NCBI RefSeq assembly: GCF_014647455.2
Contig: NZ_BMPF01000001.1
Coordinates: forward strand, 930,001-994,000
DNA from: Halarchaeum grantii
Lineage (GTDB): Archaea > Halobacteriota > Halobacteria > Halobacteriales > Halobacteriaceae
DNA length: 64,000 nucleotides
Reading direction: 5' to 3'
Positions within the stretch are counted from its first letter, which is position 1; every line of letters begins with the position of its first letter. A model generated the notes under the pieces. It saw only the letters and a list, made by a program, of their open reading frames with translations, was not told the origin of the DNA and made no database searches. Shown here one piece after another: positions 7,745 through 64,000 of this stretch. The position numbers were made by a program, and so were the translations under genes.

Positions 7745-8301
7745 CGGAGGCGCACGGCGTCGACGTATCTCCTTACCTCGGCCTCCCAGACGACCGAGAT
7801 ACCGACGGCGACGAGGCCGTCGGTCGCCGACTCGACCGGATACTCGTAGGTCCGCCAGCCGCCGTGGTCCTCGACGGCCCGCGTGGTGTCGAAGGCGCTC
7901 TCGGTGAGCGGGCGCTCCGGGCCGGCGTACGCGGCCACCTTCGTGATGGTGTTGAACGACTCCTCGGGGCTCCAGACGTCGACGGCGAGCGTGTCGGCGT
8001 CGGAGAGGTCGGTGGTCTGTGCCACCCAGAGCGTCCCGTCGTCCTGCCGACCGTCGATGAAGAACGACGCGGCGCGCGACCCCTCGCTCGCCTGCTCGTC
8101 CGAAACCGTGACCGCCGAGGCGACGGGTGCGCCCGTGTTCGGGTCGGTCGGGAGCTCGCGCCCGCGCTCCCATCCCGCGAGGCCGCTCTCGAAGCCCCCG
8201 TTCGCCAGCCCCGCCGTCGTCGGCGCGCTACAGCCAGCGAGCGTCGTGAGGCCGGCGGTCGCGAGCGCGCCCGCCGTCGCGAGGAACGAACGTCGATGCA
8301 C
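7741..8301 (-). CDS. Tat-exported lipoprotein, unknown function (186 aa)
   Basis: The N-terminus HRRSFLATAGALATAGLTTLAGC has a twin-arginine motif, a hydrophobic stretch and a lipobox (LAGC), so the product is likely folded before export and anchored by a lipid on the outer face of the membrane. The mature part (NGGFESGLAGWERG...) resembles a carbohydrate-binding/jelly-roll domain that begins with the common 'N-G-x-F-E-x-G-x-x-x-W' pattern. It could bind sugars, but no catalytic residues are recognisable. GTG at 8299-8301 gives a proper signal peptide; a TTG at 8328 would add nine residues and overlap the VWA stop. It closes the minus-strand run MoxR-VWA-lipoprotein. Confidence 0.75.
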   Translation of the reverse strand: MHRRSFLATAGALATAGLTTLAGCSAPTTAGLANGGFESGLAGWERGRELPTDPNTGAPVASAVTVSDEQASEGSRAASFFIDGRQDDGTLWVAQTTDLSDADTLAVDVWSPEESFNTITKVAAYAGPERPLTESAFDTTRAVEDHGGWRTYEYPVESATDGLVAVGISVVWEAEVRRYVDAVRLR

Positions 8302-8324
8302 GTCGGGGCCGTCGCGCGCCACCC

Positions 8325-9527
8325 TCAAAACGACTGTCGCCGCGCGTCCGCGACCGCGCGCAGCGTCGGTCCGTGGCGCGCGAGGTCGTCCGCGAGGGCC
8401 GCGAGGTCGTCGGCGTCCGCGAACGCGTAGCAGCCGTCAACGTAGTCGAGCGCGGCGCGAATCCCGGGCGCGACCGGTCGCCACTGCGGGTCGGCGGCGA
8501 GCGGGTTCAGCCAGAGGACGCACCGGGCGCGCCCGGAGAGCCACGCCAACTCGTCGCGCAACCGGGACGTATCGCCGCGCTCGACGCCGTCGCTGACGAC
8601 GACGACGGTGTCGCGCCGACCGACGGCCGCCGAGCGCTCGTCGTGGAGCGTCGCGAGCGCGTCGCCGATGCGTGTGCCGCCGCCCCACTCGACGCCGCCG
8701 GCTTCGAGCGCGCGCCCGGCGGCTTCCGGGGAGTCGGCGTCGAACGCCGCGCTCACGTCGCGGAGCGCGGTGTCGAAGAAGAAGACCGGCGTGCGCCGCC
8801 AGCGAGCGCGGACCTCGCGACAGAACGCGAGCAGGGCGTCCCGGTCGAGCGCGTCGATGACGGAGCCGCTGACGTCGACGAGGACGACGCCGCGCGCGGC
8901 GCTGCGCTCGCGCTCGCGCTCCGGGAGGGAGAGCGGGACGCCGCCCCGACTCGCGTTCGCGCGGAGCGCGCGCCGGACGTCGGGTCGGCCGTCCCCGCCG
9001 GTCCAACGCCGGCCGGGAAGGGAGGCGACGGCGTCGGTGAGGGCCGCGACGGCGCGCGACACGTCCACCTCGCCGATACCGTCGAGGCTGACGCGCTCGC
9101 TCGCGCCGTCCGCGCTGTACTGGTCGCCCGCGTTCGCGCCGTCGCCGGTGCCGACGCCGCCCGCGAGGCCGTCCCCGGGCGCACCGCCGACCGAGGCGTC
9201 CACGTCGCTGACGGTCTGGCCGGGCGCGTCCGCCGCGCCCTCCGCGCTCGTGCCGAGCGTGGCGGTGTCATCGTCGCCGTACGCGGCGTCCGCCCCGCGG
9301 AGGCGCGCCCAGAACGTCTCGAAGCGCGCGTCGAGCGCCTCGACGTCCGCGGGGCGCGTGCAGAGCGTCGCTCGAAGCGCGGTACGAACCCCTGCCTTCT
9401 CGGGGTCGTCGAGCGCCGCGAGCGCGTCGGCGGCGGCGAGCGCGCCGTCAGCGGGGACGGCGACGCCCGCGTCGCGGAGGTCGGCGACGAGACGCACCAG
9501 TTCCGCCCGAACGTGGTCGGCGATCAC
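8325..9527 (-). CDS. VWA domain protein, CoxE-like partner of MoxR ATPase (400 aa)
   Basis: The C-terminal half is a von Willebrand A domain with an intact metal-ion-dependent adhesion site: DVSGS at 218-222, then GGTRIGDAL with the Thr, and VVVSDGVE with the Asp. The N-terminal 80 residues are helical; residues 85-145 form a Gly/Ala/Asp-rich linker. No membrane segment is seen. MoxR ATPases with cytoplasmic VWA partners act in maturation of metal centres or protein complexes (for example CoxD/CoxE in CO dehydrogenase), but no oxidase or dehydrogenase target lies nearby. The GTG start overlaps the stop of the upstream MoxR gene (GTGA), indicating coupled translation. Confidence 0.88.
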   Translation of the reverse strand: MIADHVRAELVRLVADLRDAGVAVPADGALAAADALAALDDPEKAGVRTALRATLCTRPADVEALDARFETFWARLRGADAAYGDDDTATLGTSAEGAADAPGQTVSDVDASVGGAPGDGLAGGVGTGDGANAGDQYSADGASERVSLDGIGEVDVSRAVAALTDAVASLPGRRWTGGDGRPDVRRALRANASRGGVPLSLPERERERSAARGVVLVDVSGSVIDALDRDALLAFCREVRARWRRTPVFFFDTALRDVSAAFDADSPEAAGRALEAGGVEWGGGTRIGDALATLHDERSAAVGRRDTVVVVSDGVERGDTSRLRDELAWLSGRARCVLWLNPLAADPQWRPVAPGIRAALDYVDGCYAFADADDLAALADDLARHGPTLRAVADARRQSF

Positions 9528-37015: not shown

Positions 37016-37118
37016 CGCACGACCGCAGGACAGCAGTGTCGGCGAGCGGGGCGGTCGGCCCGGATGGAGTCGTGAAGTGCCGCTGGACACGACGGTATTG
37101 TATTCGATTCGAAAATTA

Positions 37119-37132
37119 CCTTAGTTTTATTC
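37119..37132 (+). promoter_or_regulatory. AT-rich promoter region of the DUF7503-like microprotein
   Basis: CCTTAGTTTTATTC lies in the middle of a markedly AT-rich 110-base spacer. It is flanked by a 7-base inverted repeat, ATTCGAT at 37102-37108 and ATCGAAT at 37157-37163, that could be an operator. The ATG is about 49 bases after the TATA-like core, so this transcript probably has a leader. Confidence 0.4.
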
Positions 37133-37180
37133 CACAAGTTATGAGATAGACTTTCTATCGAATCGGTATTTCGTTGAAGT

Positions 37181-37315
37181 ATGTCCGAGAAAGACATCAC
37201 GGCGTACCTCACCGAAAACCCCCGCATGATCGGCGCGCTGTTCACGCTCGTGCTGCTACTCGCATCTGCGGGCAACACGGCGGCCGTCCTCGCTCCGAGC
37301 TTCAACGGTCCTTAA
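37181..37315 (+). CDS. DUF7503-like single-span membrane microprotein (44 aa)
   Basis: The 44-residue product starts SEKDITAYLTENPRMIGALF and has one hydrophobic span (IGALFTLVLLLASAGNTAAVLA) before a polar tail ending NGP. Small proteins with the same opening are, as I recall, annotated DUF7503 and occur in several copies in haloarchaeal genomes. The last helix residues resemble a signal peptide with a possible cleavage near AGNTAA, so secretion is also possible. Its TAA overlaps the TAA of the convergent CHAT gene (three shared bases). The upstream spacer is AT-rich with a TATA-like core and an inverted repeat. No known function. Confidence 0.7.
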   Translation: MSEKDITAYLTENPRMIGALFTLVLLLASAGNTAAVLAPSFNGP

Positions 37316-39411
37316 ATATCCGATAGGTCGATCTTATCGCTCCAGTGTAAATCCCCGTCGAGTAGTATCGGAGAGCGACCAGATTCGAATATATTCTGCA
37401 GTATGTCCCGGCCAACCCGATAGTCGTGGTCTGCCGGGCTGGACAGATATCGTTCCGCGGACTCGGTGAACAGTGGCGATGAGATAGTCCCCGGACCGAA
37501 GTCGCGCGTCAAAAAGTCACGGATGACGACGTGGATGTCGTCTCCAGTCGTCTGGTCAGTTTCGATTACACCAATCTTGGGGCAGCCTCCTTGATGCTGA
37601 CAGAGCGTCACGCCACCGCTCCCGACGATGGAGTACTGGTAGCCGGCCGCGACGTTCTCGGTCGCGACCGAGAGAGCGCCGTGGAGGTCAAAGCCGTTGT
37701 CGAGGAGGCGAGCGACGGAGCGTCCGACCTCGGTCGCGACGTGGTTGAAGACGTCATCGAGGGTGACGACGCCGCCGAGCGCACCGCGTTCGACGATCTC
37801 CATCCCCTGCGCGTAGGACCGACAGCCGTTGAGGATGAAGACGTCGACGTTCACCGAGTCGACGTCGCGGACGTCGAGGTACTCGTCGTCGCGACACTGG
37901 ATGCCGTCCTCGGTAACGTGCCCGATAAAGTGGAGGAGGTCGGTCTCAGACTCCAGGACCGCCCGCGTTTGCTCGGCATCGAGGTCGAAGTCGGTCGTGA
38001 TATCGAACTCGATGGCGTCCCGGAACCCGTAGAGGCTCTCTGCTTCCTCGCGCATGTCCGGATCGTTGCAGACGACGTGGACGTCGATGGTCGCGTCTCG
38101 TTCGGCCTGACGGTCGAGGCGGCGCTCGTAGGAGTCGACGGTCGGTTTCGACGCGCCGACGGGATAGTCCTCACCGACCCAAGCGTGTCCGACCGTCTCG
38201 GCCTCGACCGGCGAGACGATACGCTCGCTGGCGTCGGCGTCGCGGTCGACTGCACGGACAGTCGCGTCGCTCCCCGCCGACCGGACGAACGTGTCATCGG
38301 GTGCCGAACGGAAGAACTCGGCCACGGCGTCGGGTTCGGGCGTCGGGGTCGTCGTCTCGGCGGTCGGTGCGGGCGAGCGAACGAACGAGAGGTCGTTGAC
38401 GAGGTGCGGAAGTATCTCGGCGTTCTCCGGGCCCGGATCGACGTCCGCGGTCAGGTGCCATTCGAAGACGTCCTCAGTGACGGAGAAGGGGACGTCCAGA
38501 TACGCTGCGGTGCGCCCGGCGAGCGTGCGACCGTAGAGGGTCGCGAGGTCGAGGTCGGCGTGCTCGAGGACGGTGTCGCGCTCGTCCAGCTCGACCGGAT
38601 AGATGCCCTCGGTACGGACGACGCAGTCGAGGGTGAAGACGTGGTGGAGGAGGGCGTTGGCGGAGCGCGCGACGTCGTCGTGGGGGAAGTCGAATGTCCG
38701 GTCCCCGGCAACGAGGCGCGGCGTCGATCCGGGAACGACATCGGCGCCGAGGTAGTACGCGAGCGTCGCGACGCTGTAAACGGCGTCGTATCGCGGGGGG
38801 ACCTCGATTCGAACGCCGGTCGACGGCGGGTCGATGTTCTCGGGGACGGCGAACTCCTCGCCACGTGTGACTTTCGGCGGGTGACCGCGCATCGTCGGAA
38901 AGGAGCGCTCGGGACTCGTCGTCTTCAGCGCGGATCCGAACGTGGAGACGGCGCGCATCAGGTCGCAGGGATCGTCCCGGACCGTGACCGTTCCCGCAGG
39001 GTGGTCGTGGAACGACCGGACGCCGAAGGAGACGGCTGTAGGCCGGTCGAGCTCGACGGCCGTCGAACCGGACCGAGAGTCAACGGTGGCCGACGCGTTC
39101 TCGACGGCGACGTAGAGCTTCAGTGGAGCGCCGGATATTTCGAACTCGTAGGTACCACGGGCGACGTCCCCGACGGTACCTGCGGGAACGTCGTTGACGA
39201 CCGTTCCGTCGCGGCGGACGAAGACGTCGGCGGGGTTGGGGAAGACGAGCGTGTCGGTTTCGACGACGATCGCTCGGGTCAGGGGGACGTGAAAGTCGTC
39301 GGCGTCGTCCACGTCGAACTCGGCGGTGCCGGTCTCGACGGTGTAGGTGACGTTCTCGATCCGGTCGTGAATCCGGACGCCGTCGGCGAACCCCTCGAAC
39401 GCGATGTTCAC
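37312..39411 (-). CDS. CHAT-domain (caspase-like) putative protease, haloarchaeal type (699 aa)
   Basis: Residues about 470-610 match the CHAT/caspase-like fold: ESETDLLHFIGHVTEDGI carries the catalytic-type His (second H of HFIGH, residue 498) and VDVFILNGCRSYAQGME carries the Cys (residue 530), each after a hydrophobic strand. The conserved later block GALGGVVTLDDVFNHVATEVGRSVARLL is where these proteins assess and close the fold. The N-terminal 460 residues are beta-rich (NIAFEGFADGVRIHDRIENVTYTVETG...) without a recognised domain and could be a sensor. No signal peptide or membrane span. GTG at 39409-39411 follows a GAGAGGTG Shine-Dalgarno-like tract; an ATG at 39448-39450 is the alternative. 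It ends inside the microprotein stop. Confidence 0.82.
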   Translation of the reverse strand: MNIAFEGFADGVRIHDRIENVTYTVETGTAEFDVDDADDFHVPLTRAIVVETDTLVFPNPADVFVRRDGTVVNDVPAGTVGDVARGTYEFEISGAPLKLYVAVENASATVDSRSGSTAVELDRPTAVSFGVRSFHDHPAGTVTVRDDPCDLMRAVSTFGSALKTTSPERSFPTMRGHPPKVTRGEEFAVPENIDPPSTGVRIEVPPRYDAVYSVATLAYYLGADVVPGSTPRLVAGDRTFDFPHDDVARSANALLHHVFTLDCVVRTEGIYPVELDERDTVLEHADLDLATLYGRTLAGRTAAYLDVPFSVTEDVFEWHLTADVDPGPENAEILPHLVNDLSFVRSPAPTAETTTPTPEPDAVAEFFRSAPDDTFVRSAGSDATVRAVDRDADASERIVSPVEAETVGHAWVGEDYPVGASKPTVDSYERRLDRQAERDATIDVHVVCNDPDMREEAESLYGFRDAIEFDITTDFDLDAEQTRAVLESETDLLHFIGHVTEDGIQCRDDEYLDVRDVDSVNVDVFILNGCRSYAQGMEIVERGALGGVVTLDDVFNHVATEVGRSVARLLDNGFDLHGALSVATENVAAGYQYSIVGSGGVTLCQHQGGCPKIGVIETDQTTGDDIHVVIRDFLTRDFGPGTISSPLFTESAERYLSSPADHDYRVGRDILQNIFESGRSPILLDGDLHWSDKIDLSDI

Positions 39412-39601
39412 GGGGAGAACACCTCTCTCCCGCCGACGAAGCGCCGACATCGACCGGGCGGTCCTCTCGTCCCGTTCACCCCGCCCCGTCTTCGCGGCGT
39501 CGTTCTCACGTGCGTCACCAGGGGGGCCATCGGTTCAAGCGTTTCGGGGACCCGGACGCCCGACAGGATGGTTTTTGTGGAGGGGGTTCGACGACGGCGG
39601 T

Positions 39602-59613: not shown

Positions 59614-60324
59614 TTATTCGAGGTCGTAGAAGGCGTTGCGGACGGTGACGGGCGTGACGCCGGCGGCGTCGGCGGCCTCTTTCTGCGTGAGCGTGAACGC
59701 GTGGTCGCGTGCGGCGGCGTAGAGGCAGGCGGCGGCGACGCCGCTGGGTTTGCGCCCGCCCGTGGCGCCGGTCTCGCTCGCCTCGGCGGCGAGTTCGGTG
59801 GCGCGGCGTTCGACCGCGCGCGGGACGTCGAGGTCGGTGGCGAAGCGCGGAATGTACTCGCGGGCGTCGATGGGGCCGGTGGGGAGGCCGAGTTCGCGGT
59901 TCATCGCGGCGTAGGCGGCGCGGAGTTCGTTCGCGTCGGCGCGCGCGACGGCGACTATTTCGGGGACGGTGCGCGCGACGCCGTTCGTCCGGCAGACGGC
60001 GTAGATGGCGGCAGCGGCGAACCCTTCGAGCGAGCGCCCACGGATGAGGTTCTCGGATTGGGCGGAGTCGAAGAGCACGCACGCCTGGTCGCGGACGCTG
60101 TAGGTCATGGAGAGCGAGCTGACGACGCGGCGGATCTCGGTGAAGGCGTAGATCTGGTTGCGCTCGGCCTTGCTGGCGACGTTCGCGCGGTTGTGCTGGC
60201 GGCGGAGGCGGGCGAACTGGCGGCGCTTGCGGCCGGTGAGTCGCGACGAGTACCCGATCTCGGTGCTGAGGCCGCGGTCGTGCCGGGAGCGCGTGAGCGG
60301 CGAACCCACACGCCCTTTCGGCAA
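59614..60324 (-). CDS. Transcription factor B (TFIIB-like), 5' truncated, zinc ribbon missing (236 aa)
   Basis: Two cyclin-like repeats: first about 45-135 (RNQIYAFTEIRRVVSSLSMTYSVRDQACVLFDSAQSENLIRGRSLEGFAAAAIYAVCRTNG in blocks), second about 140-236 (ATELAAEASETGATGGRKPSGVAAACLYAAARDH...). The second keeps the DNA-binding ending TQKEAADAAGVTPVTVRNAFYDLE. Before them lies the B-reader region KGRVGSPLTRSRHDRGLSTEIGYSS. The N-terminal zinc ribbon (about 60-70 residues with two CxxC pairs) is absent; at its expected position the sequence switches to lower-GC DNA with an integrase. Only a TTG at 60322-60324 is available as a start. Probably interrupted by the integrated element; it might still bind DNA without recruiting polymerase. 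Confidence 0.85.
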   Translation of the reverse strand: MPKGRVGSPLTRSRHDRGLSTEIGYSSRLTGRKRRQFARLRRQHNRANVASKAERNQIYAFTEIRRVVSSLSMTYSVRDQACVLFDSAQSENLIRGRSLEGFAAAAIYAVCRTNGVARTVPEIVAVARADANELRAAYAAMNRELGLPTGPIDAREYIPRFATDLDVPRAVERRATELAAEASETGATGGRKPSGVAAACLYAAARDHAFTLTQKEAADAAGVTPVTVRNAFYDLE

Positions 60325-60346
60325 AAACTGCCTTGATATGCAGTTT
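60325..60346. repeat. Putative attachment core: 7-bp inverted repeat with 8-bp spacer
   Basis: AAACTGC at 60325-60331, spacer CTTGATAT, and GCAGTTT at 60340-60346. Arms of a perfect inverted repeat around a 6-8 base spacer are the usual layout of a tyrosine-recombinase crossover site. It falls exactly at the tfb/element junction and about 180 bases before the integrase gene. The matching far-end site is outside the window. Confidence 0.5.
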
Positions 60347-60522
60347 GAACATCAATCAGACCATGATTATTACCAAGACTCACCCGATAGCCTCGGGTAC
60401 GGTATTGCTCCGCTGAGCACCCCAACCAACAGTCAACACCATGTCAATCAATGTCGAACGCACACGCCGCGCGAGAACAGGCCGCAAATCGGCGCGTCTC
60501 ACGGGCTTTGCAGGATTCCACC

Positions 60523-61545
60523 ATGCACGACACGGACCTGCAACCCCTAACGCCCGAAGACGCAAAGGAACGCTACCTAAGAGCACTTGAAGACGACAAG
60601 GCAGACGGAACCATCCGAACGCGGGACTACAAACTCCGTCATTTCGTCCGATGGTGCGACGAGAAAGGCATAGACAACCTAAATAACCTCAATGGGCGGG
60701 ACCTTGAGGACTACAAGCACTGGCGAAAGGAAGACGGCGACTTGAAAAAGACGACTGTCAGAACCCAAATGTCCGTTATTCGCGGGTTTATCGAATACTG
60801 CGGTCGGATAAATGGTGTCCACCCCCAACTACACGAACAGGTGATACTGCCCAAACTCGAAGACGGGGAAAACCGTAGTGAGGACACCATAGAAGCCGAC
60901 CGCATACAGGACATACTCGGCTTCATGGAGAAATTCGAGTATGCCACAAGGGACCATGTTGTTCTCCTGTTACTGTGGAAAACGGGCGTCAGAACTGGGA
61001 GCCTACGGTCCCTTGACCTTGAGGACTACCACGACCGCGAGCCTGCCCTTAGACTGGAACACCGCCCCGAGACGGACACCCCGCTCAAGAACAAGTCAAA
61101 CGGGGAGCGAATGGTTGCCCTTGGTGAGAAAGAGGCAGAGGTGTTAGACGACTTCATTCGACACAAGCGGCAGGATGTTACCGATGAACACGGGCGTAAA
61201 CCCCTAATCACCACTAAGAACGGGCGTATTGGCAAGGTCACTATCCGTCGGACAACGTACCGATACACTCGCCCCTGTGTCGTCGCAGGGGGTTGCCCTC
61301 ACGACAAAGACCCTGAGGATTGCGGGGCGGCAATGAACTACGACAAGGCTTCGGAGTGTCCCGATAGTGTGAGCGCACACCCCTTCCGTCGGGCGGCAAT
61401 CACTCACCACCTAAACAACGACGTTCCGAAGCCTATGGTGAGCGACCGTATGGATGTCTCACCTGACGTGATAGATGAGCACTATGATGCCGAAGATGAG
61501 AAAGGGAAAATGAATCGGCGTAGGGAATACGTGGAGAGTATCTAA
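60523..61545 (+). CDS. Tyrosine-recombinase/integrase (340 aa)
   Basis: Site-specific recombinase of the XerC/D-like type. N-terminal SAM-like core-binding domain at about 10-105 (YLRALEDDKADGTIRTRDYKLRHFVRWCDEKG in blocks). Catalytic residues: R157 in KTGVRTGSLRSLDLED, H286-P-F-R289 (HxxR) and nucleophile Y321 in IDEHYDAED. The His/Trp before Tyr is replaced (RMDVSPD), a common haloarchaeal variant. Four cysteines (C252, C258, C267, C279) form a likely zinc insert. ATG at 60523 gives the family N-terminus; ATG at 60451 would add 24 residues. AT-richer codons than the host genes. Likely mediates insertion into tfb. Confidence 0.9.
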   Translation: MHDTDLQPLTPEDAKERYLRALEDDKADGTIRTRDYKLRHFVRWCDEKGIDNLNNLNGRDLEDYKHWRKEDGDLKKTTVRTQMSVIRGFIEYCGRINGVHPQLHEQVILPKLEDGENRSEDTIEADRIQDILGFMEKFEYATRDHVVLLLLWKTGVRTGSLRSLDLEDYHDREPALRLEHRPETDTPLKNKSNGERMVALGEKEAEVLDDFIRHKRQDVTDEHGRKPLITTKNGRIGKVTIRRTTYRYTRPCVVAGGCPHDKDPEDCGAAMNYDKASECPDSVSAHPFRRAAITHHLNNDVPKPMVSDRMDVSPDVIDEHYDAEDEKGKMNRRREYVESI

Positions 61546-61563
61546 AACACGGATTCGGTAAAT

Positions 61564-62316
61564 TCAGTCGCTTCGGTATACCAAAACTTCATCCTCCAAA
61601 CTCTGAGGTGTTCTAGGATAGGTAGCGGCGGCTTCCCTCAGTTCTTCGACACCTTCCTCTTGCAGTTGAGAGGCATCAGATACATCCTCCTCAAAGGTCG
61701 CATCATTATCCAGATATGCCTTACACTCCTCCTCAAATTTCGCGGCGGCGGCTTTCAGATGCTCCGCTGAGGAAATCCCATTTTGAATTGGCTGAGGGAA
61801 CAGGTCGTTATCGTTTATTTCACAGTCATTAACAAACTCAAGAGCGTTCTGCCATGACCCTATGTTGCTTTCTAAGGCCCCTTGTGCTCCCCTAAACCCT
61901 TCAATAGCATCATGGAACCTGTCGTTCCTCATGTCGGACAGTGCGCTATCACTCAAATCAACCAGCGTGATTAGAACATCACCACCCTCCCGTTCCTCTA
62001 ATATCAACCCATCTGGATGATTAGCATCTGGCCCTTCCTCTTGTGTGGCATACAGGCCGTCACTTTCAATCACTGCCCCAATTTCATCCTCCGAATTATT
62101 CATGCCGTCGTATGCATCTTCATACAGGCCGAGGGCATATTCTGTGCGGTCCTCTGTATCCTCAACATACTTGGGATTGCACTTACTGCGGGTGGTTTCT
62201 GTCGGCGTTTCGGTAGGCGTGGAGGTTGGTTGTTGATTGGCTTCGGAACTATTTCCTGTGCAACCAGCAAGGAGAAATACAGAGCCGACGACAAACGAGC
62301 GACGTGATATGTCCAT
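61564..62316 (-). CDS. Tat-type lipoprotein of the integrated element (250 aa)
   Basis: The N-terminus DISRRSFVVGSVFLLAGCTGN has twin Arg, a hydrophobic stretch and lipobox LAGC, followed by a Thr/Pro/Glu-rich disordered linker. The mature part is helical and acidic with two cysteines (CNPKYVEDTED and FVNDCEIND, FEEECKAYL), no recognised domain. Codon use and low GC match the integrase, not the host. Convergent with the integrase, 18 bases between stops. It could alter the host surface against superinfection, but there is no direct evidence. A TTAAC box lies about 25 bases before the ATG. Confidence 0.8.
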   Translation of the reverse strand: MDISRRSFVVGSVFLLAGCTGNSSEANQQPTSTPTETPTETTRSKCNPKYVEDTEDRTEYALGLYEDAYDGMNNSEDEIGAVIESDGLYATQEEGPDANHPDGLILEEREGGDVLITLVDLSDSALSDMRNDRFHDAIEGFRGAQGALESNIGSWQNALEFVNDCEINDNDLFPQPIQNGISSAEHLKAAAAKFEEECKAYLDNDATFEEDVSDASQLQEEGVEELREAAATYPRTPQSLEDEVLVYRSD

Positions 62317-62542
62317 ATATTAGCCGTGTAATTGCTAGATGTTAACATTTTGGAAGTCGGTAGGCAATATATTGACGGACACTTCCGAATAGTTGGGCGG
62401 CAGATAGTCAGAAAATAATAATTTTTTCTGACGGTATTGGGGGGCGGTGTATATATGTCGAAAGAAATCCGAGCACACTGCGAGCGGTGATGCACCCCCT
62501 GCCAGATACGCACGAGCGGCCCCCGAACGCTAATCTCCACGG

Positions 62543-62557
62543 CCCCCGCTGTGGGGG
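62543..62557 (+). terminator. GC hairpin, possible terminator or regulatory structure
   Basis: CCCCC, loop GCTGT, GGGGG. Only five pairs and no T-run follows, so a terminator role is uncertain. Confidence 0.25.
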
Positions 62558-62634
62558 TGAGAATGGGTATCCGTATAGACTCGTTCGGCCCCGAGGAGAT
62601 TCTTGCCGCTTCTGACGCCCCGAGCCGACGGACC

Positions 62635-62668
62635 AATAACTGACAATTATGTATGTCCCACAGTTATT
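62635..62668. repeat. Inverted repeat AATAACTG ... CAGTTATT
   Basis: Eight-base perfect arms, 62635-62642 and 62661-62668, separated by 18 bases of AT-rich sequence. The same CAGTTATT motif returns at 63319 and, with one change, at 63340. Confidence 0.6.
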
Positions 62669-63223
62669 TTCTGGAGTTGCTCACAGGCGCGCAGAGCGAT
62701 TTCTTGAGTAGACGAGAGGGAAACATCCAGCCAATACTGAAGCCGCTCAGAAGCGCGCACATCGCTTTTGAGAGCAAGCCAAATCTCGACAGATATGGAA
62801 TCCGCTCAGACGAACGTGTCGGCCGCTCAAGCGCGTTCGGTGTCACGCCAGTGGATGGGCCGTGGAGTCGCTTCGAGCGGCGTAGGCGGGCGCGCACACG
62901 CGCACACCGGCAACGTTCGTAGTATCACAGCAAGGCAACGAACGTGGAGTAGTATTACTCTGCTGTATATTACCGCGCACGTAAGAAGTGATACGGGCGT
63001 GTCACGGCCCATACCGCCCGCTATCAACCGCGAGAGGCGAAATCATCTTTCGCTAATTCCTTCTACGCTTACATATCCGCGACGGGCGGGTATGCGGGTG
63101 AGTGTCACACTCCCGTCCCCCTCACGGCGGCTCGCGGTCCCCACGGCCCGCCTCAGTCTGCTGGCCGTCCCCCTATAGGCCGACGTGTCACTGAATCGGA
63201 CGGCCCCCCACCCGCGTGCCCAC

Positions 63224-63280
63224 CCTAATCCCGATTTTGGCTTCTCACGGCCTTTGCGGGGCCTAATCCCGATTTTTGGC
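63224..63280 (+). repeat. Direct repeat CCTAATCCCGATTTTTGGC x2
   Basis: Copy 1 at 63224-63241 (one T shorter) and copy 2 at 63262-63280, starts 38 bases apart. Both lie outside any gene, about 230-290 bases before the small-gene operon. Confidence 0.7.
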
Positions 63281-63318
63281 GGCCATCTCACGCGCGCCCG
63301 CGCAAGACACGGCCGTTC

Positions 63319-63349
63319 CAGTTATTAATTCGGTACGGAGAGTTATTAA
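63319..63349 (+). repeat. AGTTATTAA x2, spaced by two helical turns
   Basis: AGTTATTAA at 63320-63328 and 63341-63349, starts 21 bases apart, so both face the same side of the helix; a likely binding site pair, iteron-like. Confidence 0.5.
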
Positions 63350-63510
63350 CAGCCTGCGGACACACATCTACCCCCATCTGACCTTTCACCGAGATACGGA
63401 CCAAATCGGCCGAGACTGGCGGGAGAACGCGCCTACCTCCGAAGTACGCCAGTATGGGGCCGCGTCCAACGAACGTAGGACACTCGTCAGTACGGTAGTA
63501 ATGAGAGCAA

Positions 63511-63699
63511 ATGACTGACGACGGACCCGAACCACGCGACAGGTGGCTTAGGATTAATTCCAAGGACAGAGAGGCTATCAAGAAAGTGAAAAGTGAACAC
63601 TTCAATGGGGAAGTCCCACTCGGTTTTGCCGCTCGGTATGCCTGTGAGCAACTGGCGGAGGACGACAGTGAGGGCGACAGTGGAGGTGTCCATCTATGA
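63511..63699 (+). CDS. Small element-encoded protein, possible RHH-like (62 aa)
   Basis: Not recognised. Charged protein with RWLRINSKDREAIKKVKSEHFNGEVPLGFAARYACEQL, whose strand-helix-helix pattern could be a ribbon-helix-helix DNA-binding domain, and an acidic tail. ATG at 63511; a weak GAG lies just before. Its TGA overlaps the next ATG (ATGA), so it begins a coupled run of small genes reaching the window end. Composition fits the element (AT-richer). Confidence 0.7.
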   Translation: MTDDGPEPRDRWLRINSKDREAIKKVKSEHFNGEVPLGFAARYACEQLAEDDSEGDSGGVHL

Positions 63700-63791
63700 A
63701 CGACCGACTCGGCTACAGTGACAAGGACGACCCCACGGGCGACGGGGGGAGTTCTGTCAAATACCTTATCAATCTGGAGGATAACGAATGA
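63696..63791 (+). CDS. Small element-encoded protein (31 aa)
   Basis: Begins MNDRLGYSDKDDPTGDGGSSVKYLI and ends LEDNE. Too short to assign. It is supported by ATGA overlap with the gene before and by overlap of its own TGA with the next ATG (GAATGA), the layout of a translationally coupled viral or plasmid operon. It could be a small regulator or simply a leader for coupling. Confidence 0.5.
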   Translation: MNDRLGYSDKDDPTGDGGSSVKYLINLEDNE

Positions 63792-64000
63792 GCGAACTGG
63801 AGGTGGTGGATACGGCCGTGTCGCCCCTCTCGCGCGTGGAGTTCAACCCCGACGGCCGTGTTAACTACGAAAACGGGCGGCTCACGGCCGCGTATCCGTC
63901 GAACGCGGATACCACAGAGTTTGTAATTGCCGTGTTTCGGTACGCCGACAGTAACACGGTCGAACTCCCCGAGGGCGCGGTGGTCTTAGACGTGGGTGAG
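63788..64000 (+). CDS. Element-encoded protein, cut by window end (71 codons seen)
   Basis: Open from ATG at 63788 to the last base, with no stop. The visible part (SELEVVDTAVSPLSRVEF, VNYENGRLTAAYPSNADTTEFVIAVFRYADSNTVELPEGAVVLDVG in blocks) is beta-rich and alternates hydrophobic and polar residues, like a structural or jelly-roll protein. No match recognised. Its start overlaps the preceding stop. Confidence 0.6.
   Translation, partial: MSELEVVDTAVSPLSRVEFNPDGRVNYENGRLTAAYPSNADTTEFVIAVFRYADSNTVELPEGAVVLDVGE

Follow-up and report, generated by a model that had tools for sequence, protein, structure and literature searches.

A conserved tail-to-tail gene pair in haloarchaea suggests an undescribed protease system under peptide control

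The window, a stretch of 64,000 nucleotides from Halarchaeum grantii, belongs to contig 1 of a haloarchaeal genome of 3.0 Mb that carries four members of the large protein family described here and one DUF7503 gene. Two convergent genes were found at the place given by the initial annotation, tail to tail and with stop codons that overlap at 37312-37315 (TTAA), and the larger product was confirmed to contain both the His of HFIGH (residue 498) and the Cys of an NGC motif (residue 530). The features of the locus are as follows.

37100-37180, + strand: AT-rich microprotein promoter region containing an inverted repeat of 8 bases
37181-37315, + strand: DUF7503 (PF24335) microprotein of 44 aa (PF24335 E = 4.3e-16; alignment of 71 homologues), with a conserved HPR-type motif and one hydrophobic span ahead of a short variable tail and Gly-Pro-stop
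37205-37285, + strand: microprotein leader, residues 9-35 (YLTENPRMIGALF...ASAGNTAA), delimited by column conservation, within-genus pN/pS of 0.13-0.30 and hydropathy
37286-37312, + strand: C-terminal tail of the microprotein, nine variable residues (VLAPSFNGP) with an invariant Gly-Pro end (Gly in 70/71 and Pro in 68/71 aligned sequences)
37312-39411, - strand: CHAT/caspase-like protein of 699 aa, GTG start, clade A of the haloarchaeal family
37822-37824, - strand: predicted catalytic Cys530 (ILNGCRS), kept in 182/186 family members
37918-37920, - strand: predicted catalytic His498 (HFIGH), kept in 182/186 family members
38875-38907, - strand: near-invariant motif of the N-terminal half, R169..RGHPP179 (ERSxPTxRGHPP), present even in the catalytically dead paralogues of locus L116

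The leader comprises a positive residue, the hydrophobic span and an AxA-like site of signal-peptidase type. The CHAT open reading frame begins with GTG at 39411, an ATG at 39450 being the alternative start; as the close relatives in the homologue alignment also begin at the GTG (MKPKFEP.. with VNIAFEG..), the length of 699 aa is supported. The CHAT protein has no signal peptide. Upstream of the microprotein, positions 37100-37180 contain 32% GC against about 68% in the surrounding DNA, and the arms of the inverted repeat lie at 37105-37112 (CGATTCGA) and 37158-37165 (TCGAATCG); the AT-rich block reported earlier was thus recovered, as was the repeat, the arms of which span 8 bases and not 7. 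A promoter-like element, TTAAGATAAATTTATT, was observed about 25 bases before the microprotein start in most homologues throughout the class, its counterpart in the window being weak (score 5.3 against a median of 12.7). The element was absent upstream of the CHAT gene, and a promoter common to both genes was rejected on that ground.

Taken singly, the window protein would make a weak case for assignment to CHAT, as it scored 11.7 bits (E = 0.17) against the Pfam CHAT profile (PF12770), below the cut-off of 24. The profile matched 7 of 34 family members at E <= 0.01, the best of them at 1.2e-5 and above the Pfam cut-off, and paralogue L115 exceeded the cut-off with 25.4 bits; one family member matched the caspase-like family C25, weakly. 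The His-Cys dyad was unbroken in 182 of 186 family members, and the proposed CHAT/microprotein pair survived the test set by the initial annotation, namely loss of the dyad in homologues. The dyad stands in the same order as in CHAT (PF12770) proteases and clan CD (caspases, separase and the C25 gingipains), from which the window family differs in having an N-terminal half of about 450 residues with no recognised domain. No PDB relatives of the CHAT protein were found by a one-sequence search and two profile searches, and an AlphaFold model built from three input sequences had a mean pLDDT of 36, too low to confirm the beta-rich N-terminal half described by the initial annotation.

The microprotein belongs to Pfam DUF7503, matching PF24335 with 58.7 bits against a curated cut-off of 27. 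Neither DUF7503 nor DUF7504 has an assigned function, and no papers naming either were found among the open-access papers searched. When loci were picked by a DUF7503 match alone, across dozens of genera, a convergent CHAT gene was present at 60 of 60, with stop-to-stop distances in DUF7503/CHAT pairs mostly between -17 and +100, often -4, and reaching up to 260 bases. The recurrent tail-to-tail pairing that had been proposed is therefore strongly supported, and a DUF7503 gene lacking a nearby CHAT gene, which had been named as the observation that would count against it, was encountered in none of the 60. The tail-to-tail order far exceeds chance. As these loci (L048-L107) were picked by DUF7503, CHAT proteins without a partner are under-represented among them, and the unbiased figure is that obtained for clade B (24/40, described below). 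Among 242 genomes of the class, DUF7503 was present in 204 of the 223 with a CHAT-family match and in 0 of the 19 without one.

The gene neighbourhoods of the pair varied between loci, and the pair was found on both chromosomes and plasmids, about half of the plasmid DUF7503 matches being unannotated. Neither gene was found in phage records or viral contigs, and a virus-borne module was rejected for this reason. No adjoining Gly-Pro partner was detected for 37 of 186 CHAT proteins (34 with an unbroken dyad), among them tandem copies and a large part of clade B; the partners of some of these may lie elsewhere in the genome. At five loci (L080, L088, L091, L100 and L007) there is a further CHAT copy behind the microprotein, which thus stands between two CHAT genes, and L117 contains two overlapping DUF7503-like frames. 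One genome of genus g53 (G124) has 13 CHAT-family matches, and its Gly-Pro partners are of several kinds (L174, L175, L277).

Alignment of 71 microprotein sequences gave the consensus [YF]LxxHP[RK]MxGxLFTxxLLLSQAGxxAA, followed by some 8-9 variable residues and Gly-Pro-stop; the position after the proline just before the span was R or K in 70 of the 71. The Gly-Pro end was present in 106 of 109 distinct DUF7503 genes, and was encoded by all four Gly codons and all four Pro codons, followed by TAA, TGA or TAG. With every synonymous codon and three different stops in use, the constraint acts on the peptide, and Gly-Pro as a DNA or RNA element was ruled out. Overlapping of the CHAT coding strand was likewise ruled out as the cause of this end, since the Gly-Pro is kept where the two genes are separated by gaps of up to about 200 bases. 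The invariant part of the partner, newly recognised here, is its C-terminal end and not its membrane span. The AxA pattern that follows the hydrophobic stretch resembles a signal-peptidase site, at which cleavage is predicted. Within genera g11, g23 and g9, pN/pS was 0.41-0.47 in the tail against 0.13-0.19 in the leader, with a less clear contrast in genus g8 (0.38 against 0.30); the tail values are below 1 throughout and so indicate variability, short of proof for diversifying selection. Paralogous pairs within one genome bear different cores, as in G123 and G045. Co-divergence of tail and CHAT protein was weak (partial r up to 0.17) and was located in the protease domain and in the C-terminal part, the latter being also the DNA nearest the small gene; this signal is not decisive.

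The membrane span proved to be replaceable. In genus g44 (five genomes, L108-L112), where a strong CHAT match was accompanied by no DUF7503 match, the same tail-to-tail place is occupied by a partner with no membrane span, the stops again overlapping by 4. This partner has a short head and then 4-13 units of ADGN(S/G)(S/G)GISGP joined by two-residue spacers, the last copy ending in Gly-Pro-stop, as illustrated by the following gene.

7886-8530 of locus L108, - strand: tandem 13-residue repeat gene (ADGNxxGISGP units)

The 13 repeat units of L108 showed a pN of 0.000 at a pS of 0.58, and the 10 units of L110 a pN of 0.000 at a pS of 0.39, while the repeat core varied among species (GNSGG, GNGGG, GNGSG and GNSSG). 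The repeats are fixed in protein and diverged in DNA, as would be expected if each copy were a separate functional, specific peptide.

Further partners were seen in clade B, a paralogous CHAT clade represented in the window's genome by L115 and detected, when a strict threshold was applied, in 106 of 194 genomes. At clade B loci chosen by CHAT similarity alone, a convergent ORF ending in Gly-Pro was located within 100 bases at 24 of 40, compared with 0.39 expected from a background Gly-Pro ending rate of 0.64% (p = 2e-38). The partners were HPR-type membrane proteins, which distantly resemble DUF7503 below the profile threshold, soluble proteins ending in [RS]AKRVSTYGGP, and MRGKIRQWFVD proteins; two of the clade B partners (L240 and L241) end in ..GP plus five more residues. 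Maximum Kyte-Doolittle means over 19 residues were -0.6 to -0.1 in the spanless partners and 1.5 to 2.1 in most of the spanning types, and the spanless partners in g44 and at many clade B loci retain the Gly-Pro end. What all partners have in common is the C-terminal tail, not the span.

Paralogues that have lost both the His and the Cys were found at L116 (two copies), L170, L179, L279 and L280, and most of them retain the N-terminal motif ERSWPTLRG[HY]PP. A convincing Gly-Pro partner is missing from all of them: the two formal Gly-Pro matches near these genes are more than 40 bases off and spurious in appearance. On these small numbers, partner and protease activity appear to tend to co-occur. 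Locus L116, which belongs to the window's genome (G000:C6:10810-13954), is a tandem pair of such paralogues and is reminiscent of decoy caspases. For homologues in one family outside Halobacteria (f19), no Gly-Pro partner was found.

The conserved pair suggests that haloarchaea have a protease system under peptide control that has not been described before. In the mechanism proposed here, the large gene would encode a soluble protease of caspase-like type (CHAT, clan CD), the N-terminal half of which is conserved, and the small convergent gene a precursor, the working part of which would be the last 7-13 residues with their free Gly-Pro carboxyl terminus. This tail would be recognised by the CHAT protein as a specific ligand and would set the state of the protease, whether as activator, inhibitor or substrate end, and the rest of the small protein would be an exchangeable head in the form of a membrane anchor or signal peptide, a soluble carrier or a tandem series of tail copies. 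Release of the tail would probably occur at the AxA site in the membrane types, at KR|VSTYGGP in the soluble types and after GP in the repeat types, and activation seems a more likely direction of effect than inhibition. The tail is assigned the part of CHAT ligand because the features shared by the pairs are an active-type protease and a Gly-Pro tail, with heads that can be exchanged; from these sequence comparisons we infer physical recognition of the tail by the CHAT protein. We put at roughly 0.4 the probability that the CHAT protein recognises the Gly-Pro-ended tail as a ligand that sets the protease state, which makes this the likeliest of the explanations considered. The repeat- and KR-type heads are soluble. 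The membrane-type heads suggest a tail placed outside the cell: if the N terminus of these partners is inside, the tail would be separated from the CHAT protein, which lacks a signal peptide, and the ligand would therefore need re-import or an inverted topology.

An alternative, in which the membrane is the target, follows from the initial annotation. Here the microprotein would be both substrate and effector, cut by a triggered CHAT protease (one conceivable site being the conserved P[RK]|M that precedes the span, another the position following VAA) to free a membrane peptide that damages the membrane in a gasdermin-like manner. The conserved single span with its preceding P[RK], together with the strict linkage to a protease with an unbroken dyad, would suit such a function, for which bacterial gasdermins, causing membrane damage via a CHAT/caspase-like protease, are a precedent. 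The bacterial gasdermin module resembles the window pair in that a caspase-like protease is genetically tied to a small, often membrane-directed partner, but the partners described here are about 35-150 aa, are sometimes soluble repeats, end in Gly-Pro and stand in convergent order, and a profile search gave no gasdermin family match for the window microprotein or the other partners. Craspase (PMC9729208), the type III-E CRISPR system of Csx29 (TPR-CHAT) and Csx30, is a further precedent for a CHAT protease with a dedicated partner, although the window pair has no TPR, CRISPR effector or Csx30, and PADLOC, TPR and CRISPR matches were absent for either window protein. The substrate and effector function is nevertheless unlikely, since soluble partners without a span occupy this place too and likewise end in Gly-Pro, and damage by the span would leave the invariant terminal Gly-Pro unexplained. 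As a general statement, the membrane-damage switch did not hold in the face of the spanless partners of g44 and many clade B loci, which rule out membrane damage as the family-wide common denominator.

A partner acting as protease inhibitor, in the manner of an antitoxin, would account for the terminus itself: the Gly-Pro end would fill the active site as an uncleavable product, for which it would be a sensible product-like end, and loss of the partner would free the protease. This would agree with the dead paralogues being without a convincing partner and with genomes G048 and G072, which lack DUF7503 and have a broken or divergent CHAT gene. We consider it improbable all the same, as 34 CHAT proteins with an unbroken dyad have no adjoining partner, and tandem repeats and secretion-like signals would be odd in an inhibitor. 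Gly-Pro at a termination site is also a weak spot for ribosomes (C-terminal proline, SecM GIRAGP), and the conservation at the stop, on the peptide level, could be read as a feature of translation, with slow termination or nascent-chain arrest being sensed as membrane or translation stress; this is highly improbable, because the convergent order leaves nothing downstream for an arrest to control, and both the protease pairing and the identical 11-residue repeats would be unexplained. Hardly more plausible is that the two genes are functionally unrelated and that their convergence reflects frozen synteny or an antisense regulatory arrangement. About thirteen paired loci do have a longer synteny in common, and the overlapping 3' ends could pair as RNA, but the pair persists in many neighbourhoods, on chromosomes and plasmids and at distances of up to 260 bases, and partners that have been replaced still end in Gly-Pro.

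For the tail as ligand of the CHAT protein, a hypothetical parallel is provided by Rgg-SHP and PlcR-PapR, which are Gram-positive pairs of peptide pheromone and cytosolic receptor. The likeness would consist in a small precursor gene beside the receptor, a variable C-terminal peptide and differing heads, and an adjoining precursor with a C-terminal variable peptide, as in RRNPP systems, was indeed found (with fixed Gly-Pro, and tandem cores in g44). Unlike those systems, the candidate receptor here is an archaeal protease and not an RRNPP regulator, a domain search of the CHAT protein having found neither the TPR nor the HTH domain of an RRNPP-type cytosolic receptor, and the peptide has a Gly-Pro C terminus. 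A wider and rather doubtful extension would be class-wide peptide signalling in haloarchaea, in which short, species-specific Gly-Pro-ended peptides, single or in tandem, would be read directly by the caspase-like protease of the opposite strand. Yeast alpha-factor is made from a tandem peptide precursor, to which the g44-type repeats may be likened. If true, such signalling would couple regulated proteolysis or cell death in archaea to cell-to-cell or self/non-self information.

Very high caspase-like activity has been described in Haloferax volcanii, the responsible protein not having been identified for lack of gene homologues (PMC3615174). DUF7503 was found in H. volcanii, used as a control genome; the Pfam CHAT profile, which misses most of the CHAT family studied here, gives no match in it. 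Its DUF7503 gene suggests that H. volcanii carries a CHAT gene, and as DUF7503 always marked an adjoining CHAT gene in our survey, these proteases are concrete candidates for the caspase-like activity, with the Gly-Pro-ended tails bearing on how such a protease is controlled. If true, the mechanism proposed here would add a peptide-controlled caspase-like system to the archaea, in which, to our knowledge, neither peptide signalling nor caspase regulators have been characterised.

Two further gene families were found beside the pair. DUF7504 (PF24336) was located directly upstream of the CHAT gene, on the same strand, at 24 of 71 paired loci (for example L049, 8380-9129, - strand), and a receiver-HalX response-regulator-like gene was located upstream of the microprotein, on the same strand, at 12 of 71 (for example L048, 5257-5895, + strand). 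The window pair adjoins no receiver-HalX gene, and none of the eight DUF7504 genes in the window's genome was found adjoining it. Elsewhere in the window, G+C drops from about 0.70 to 0.52-0.59 at positions 60001-64000, which is possibly an acquired region.
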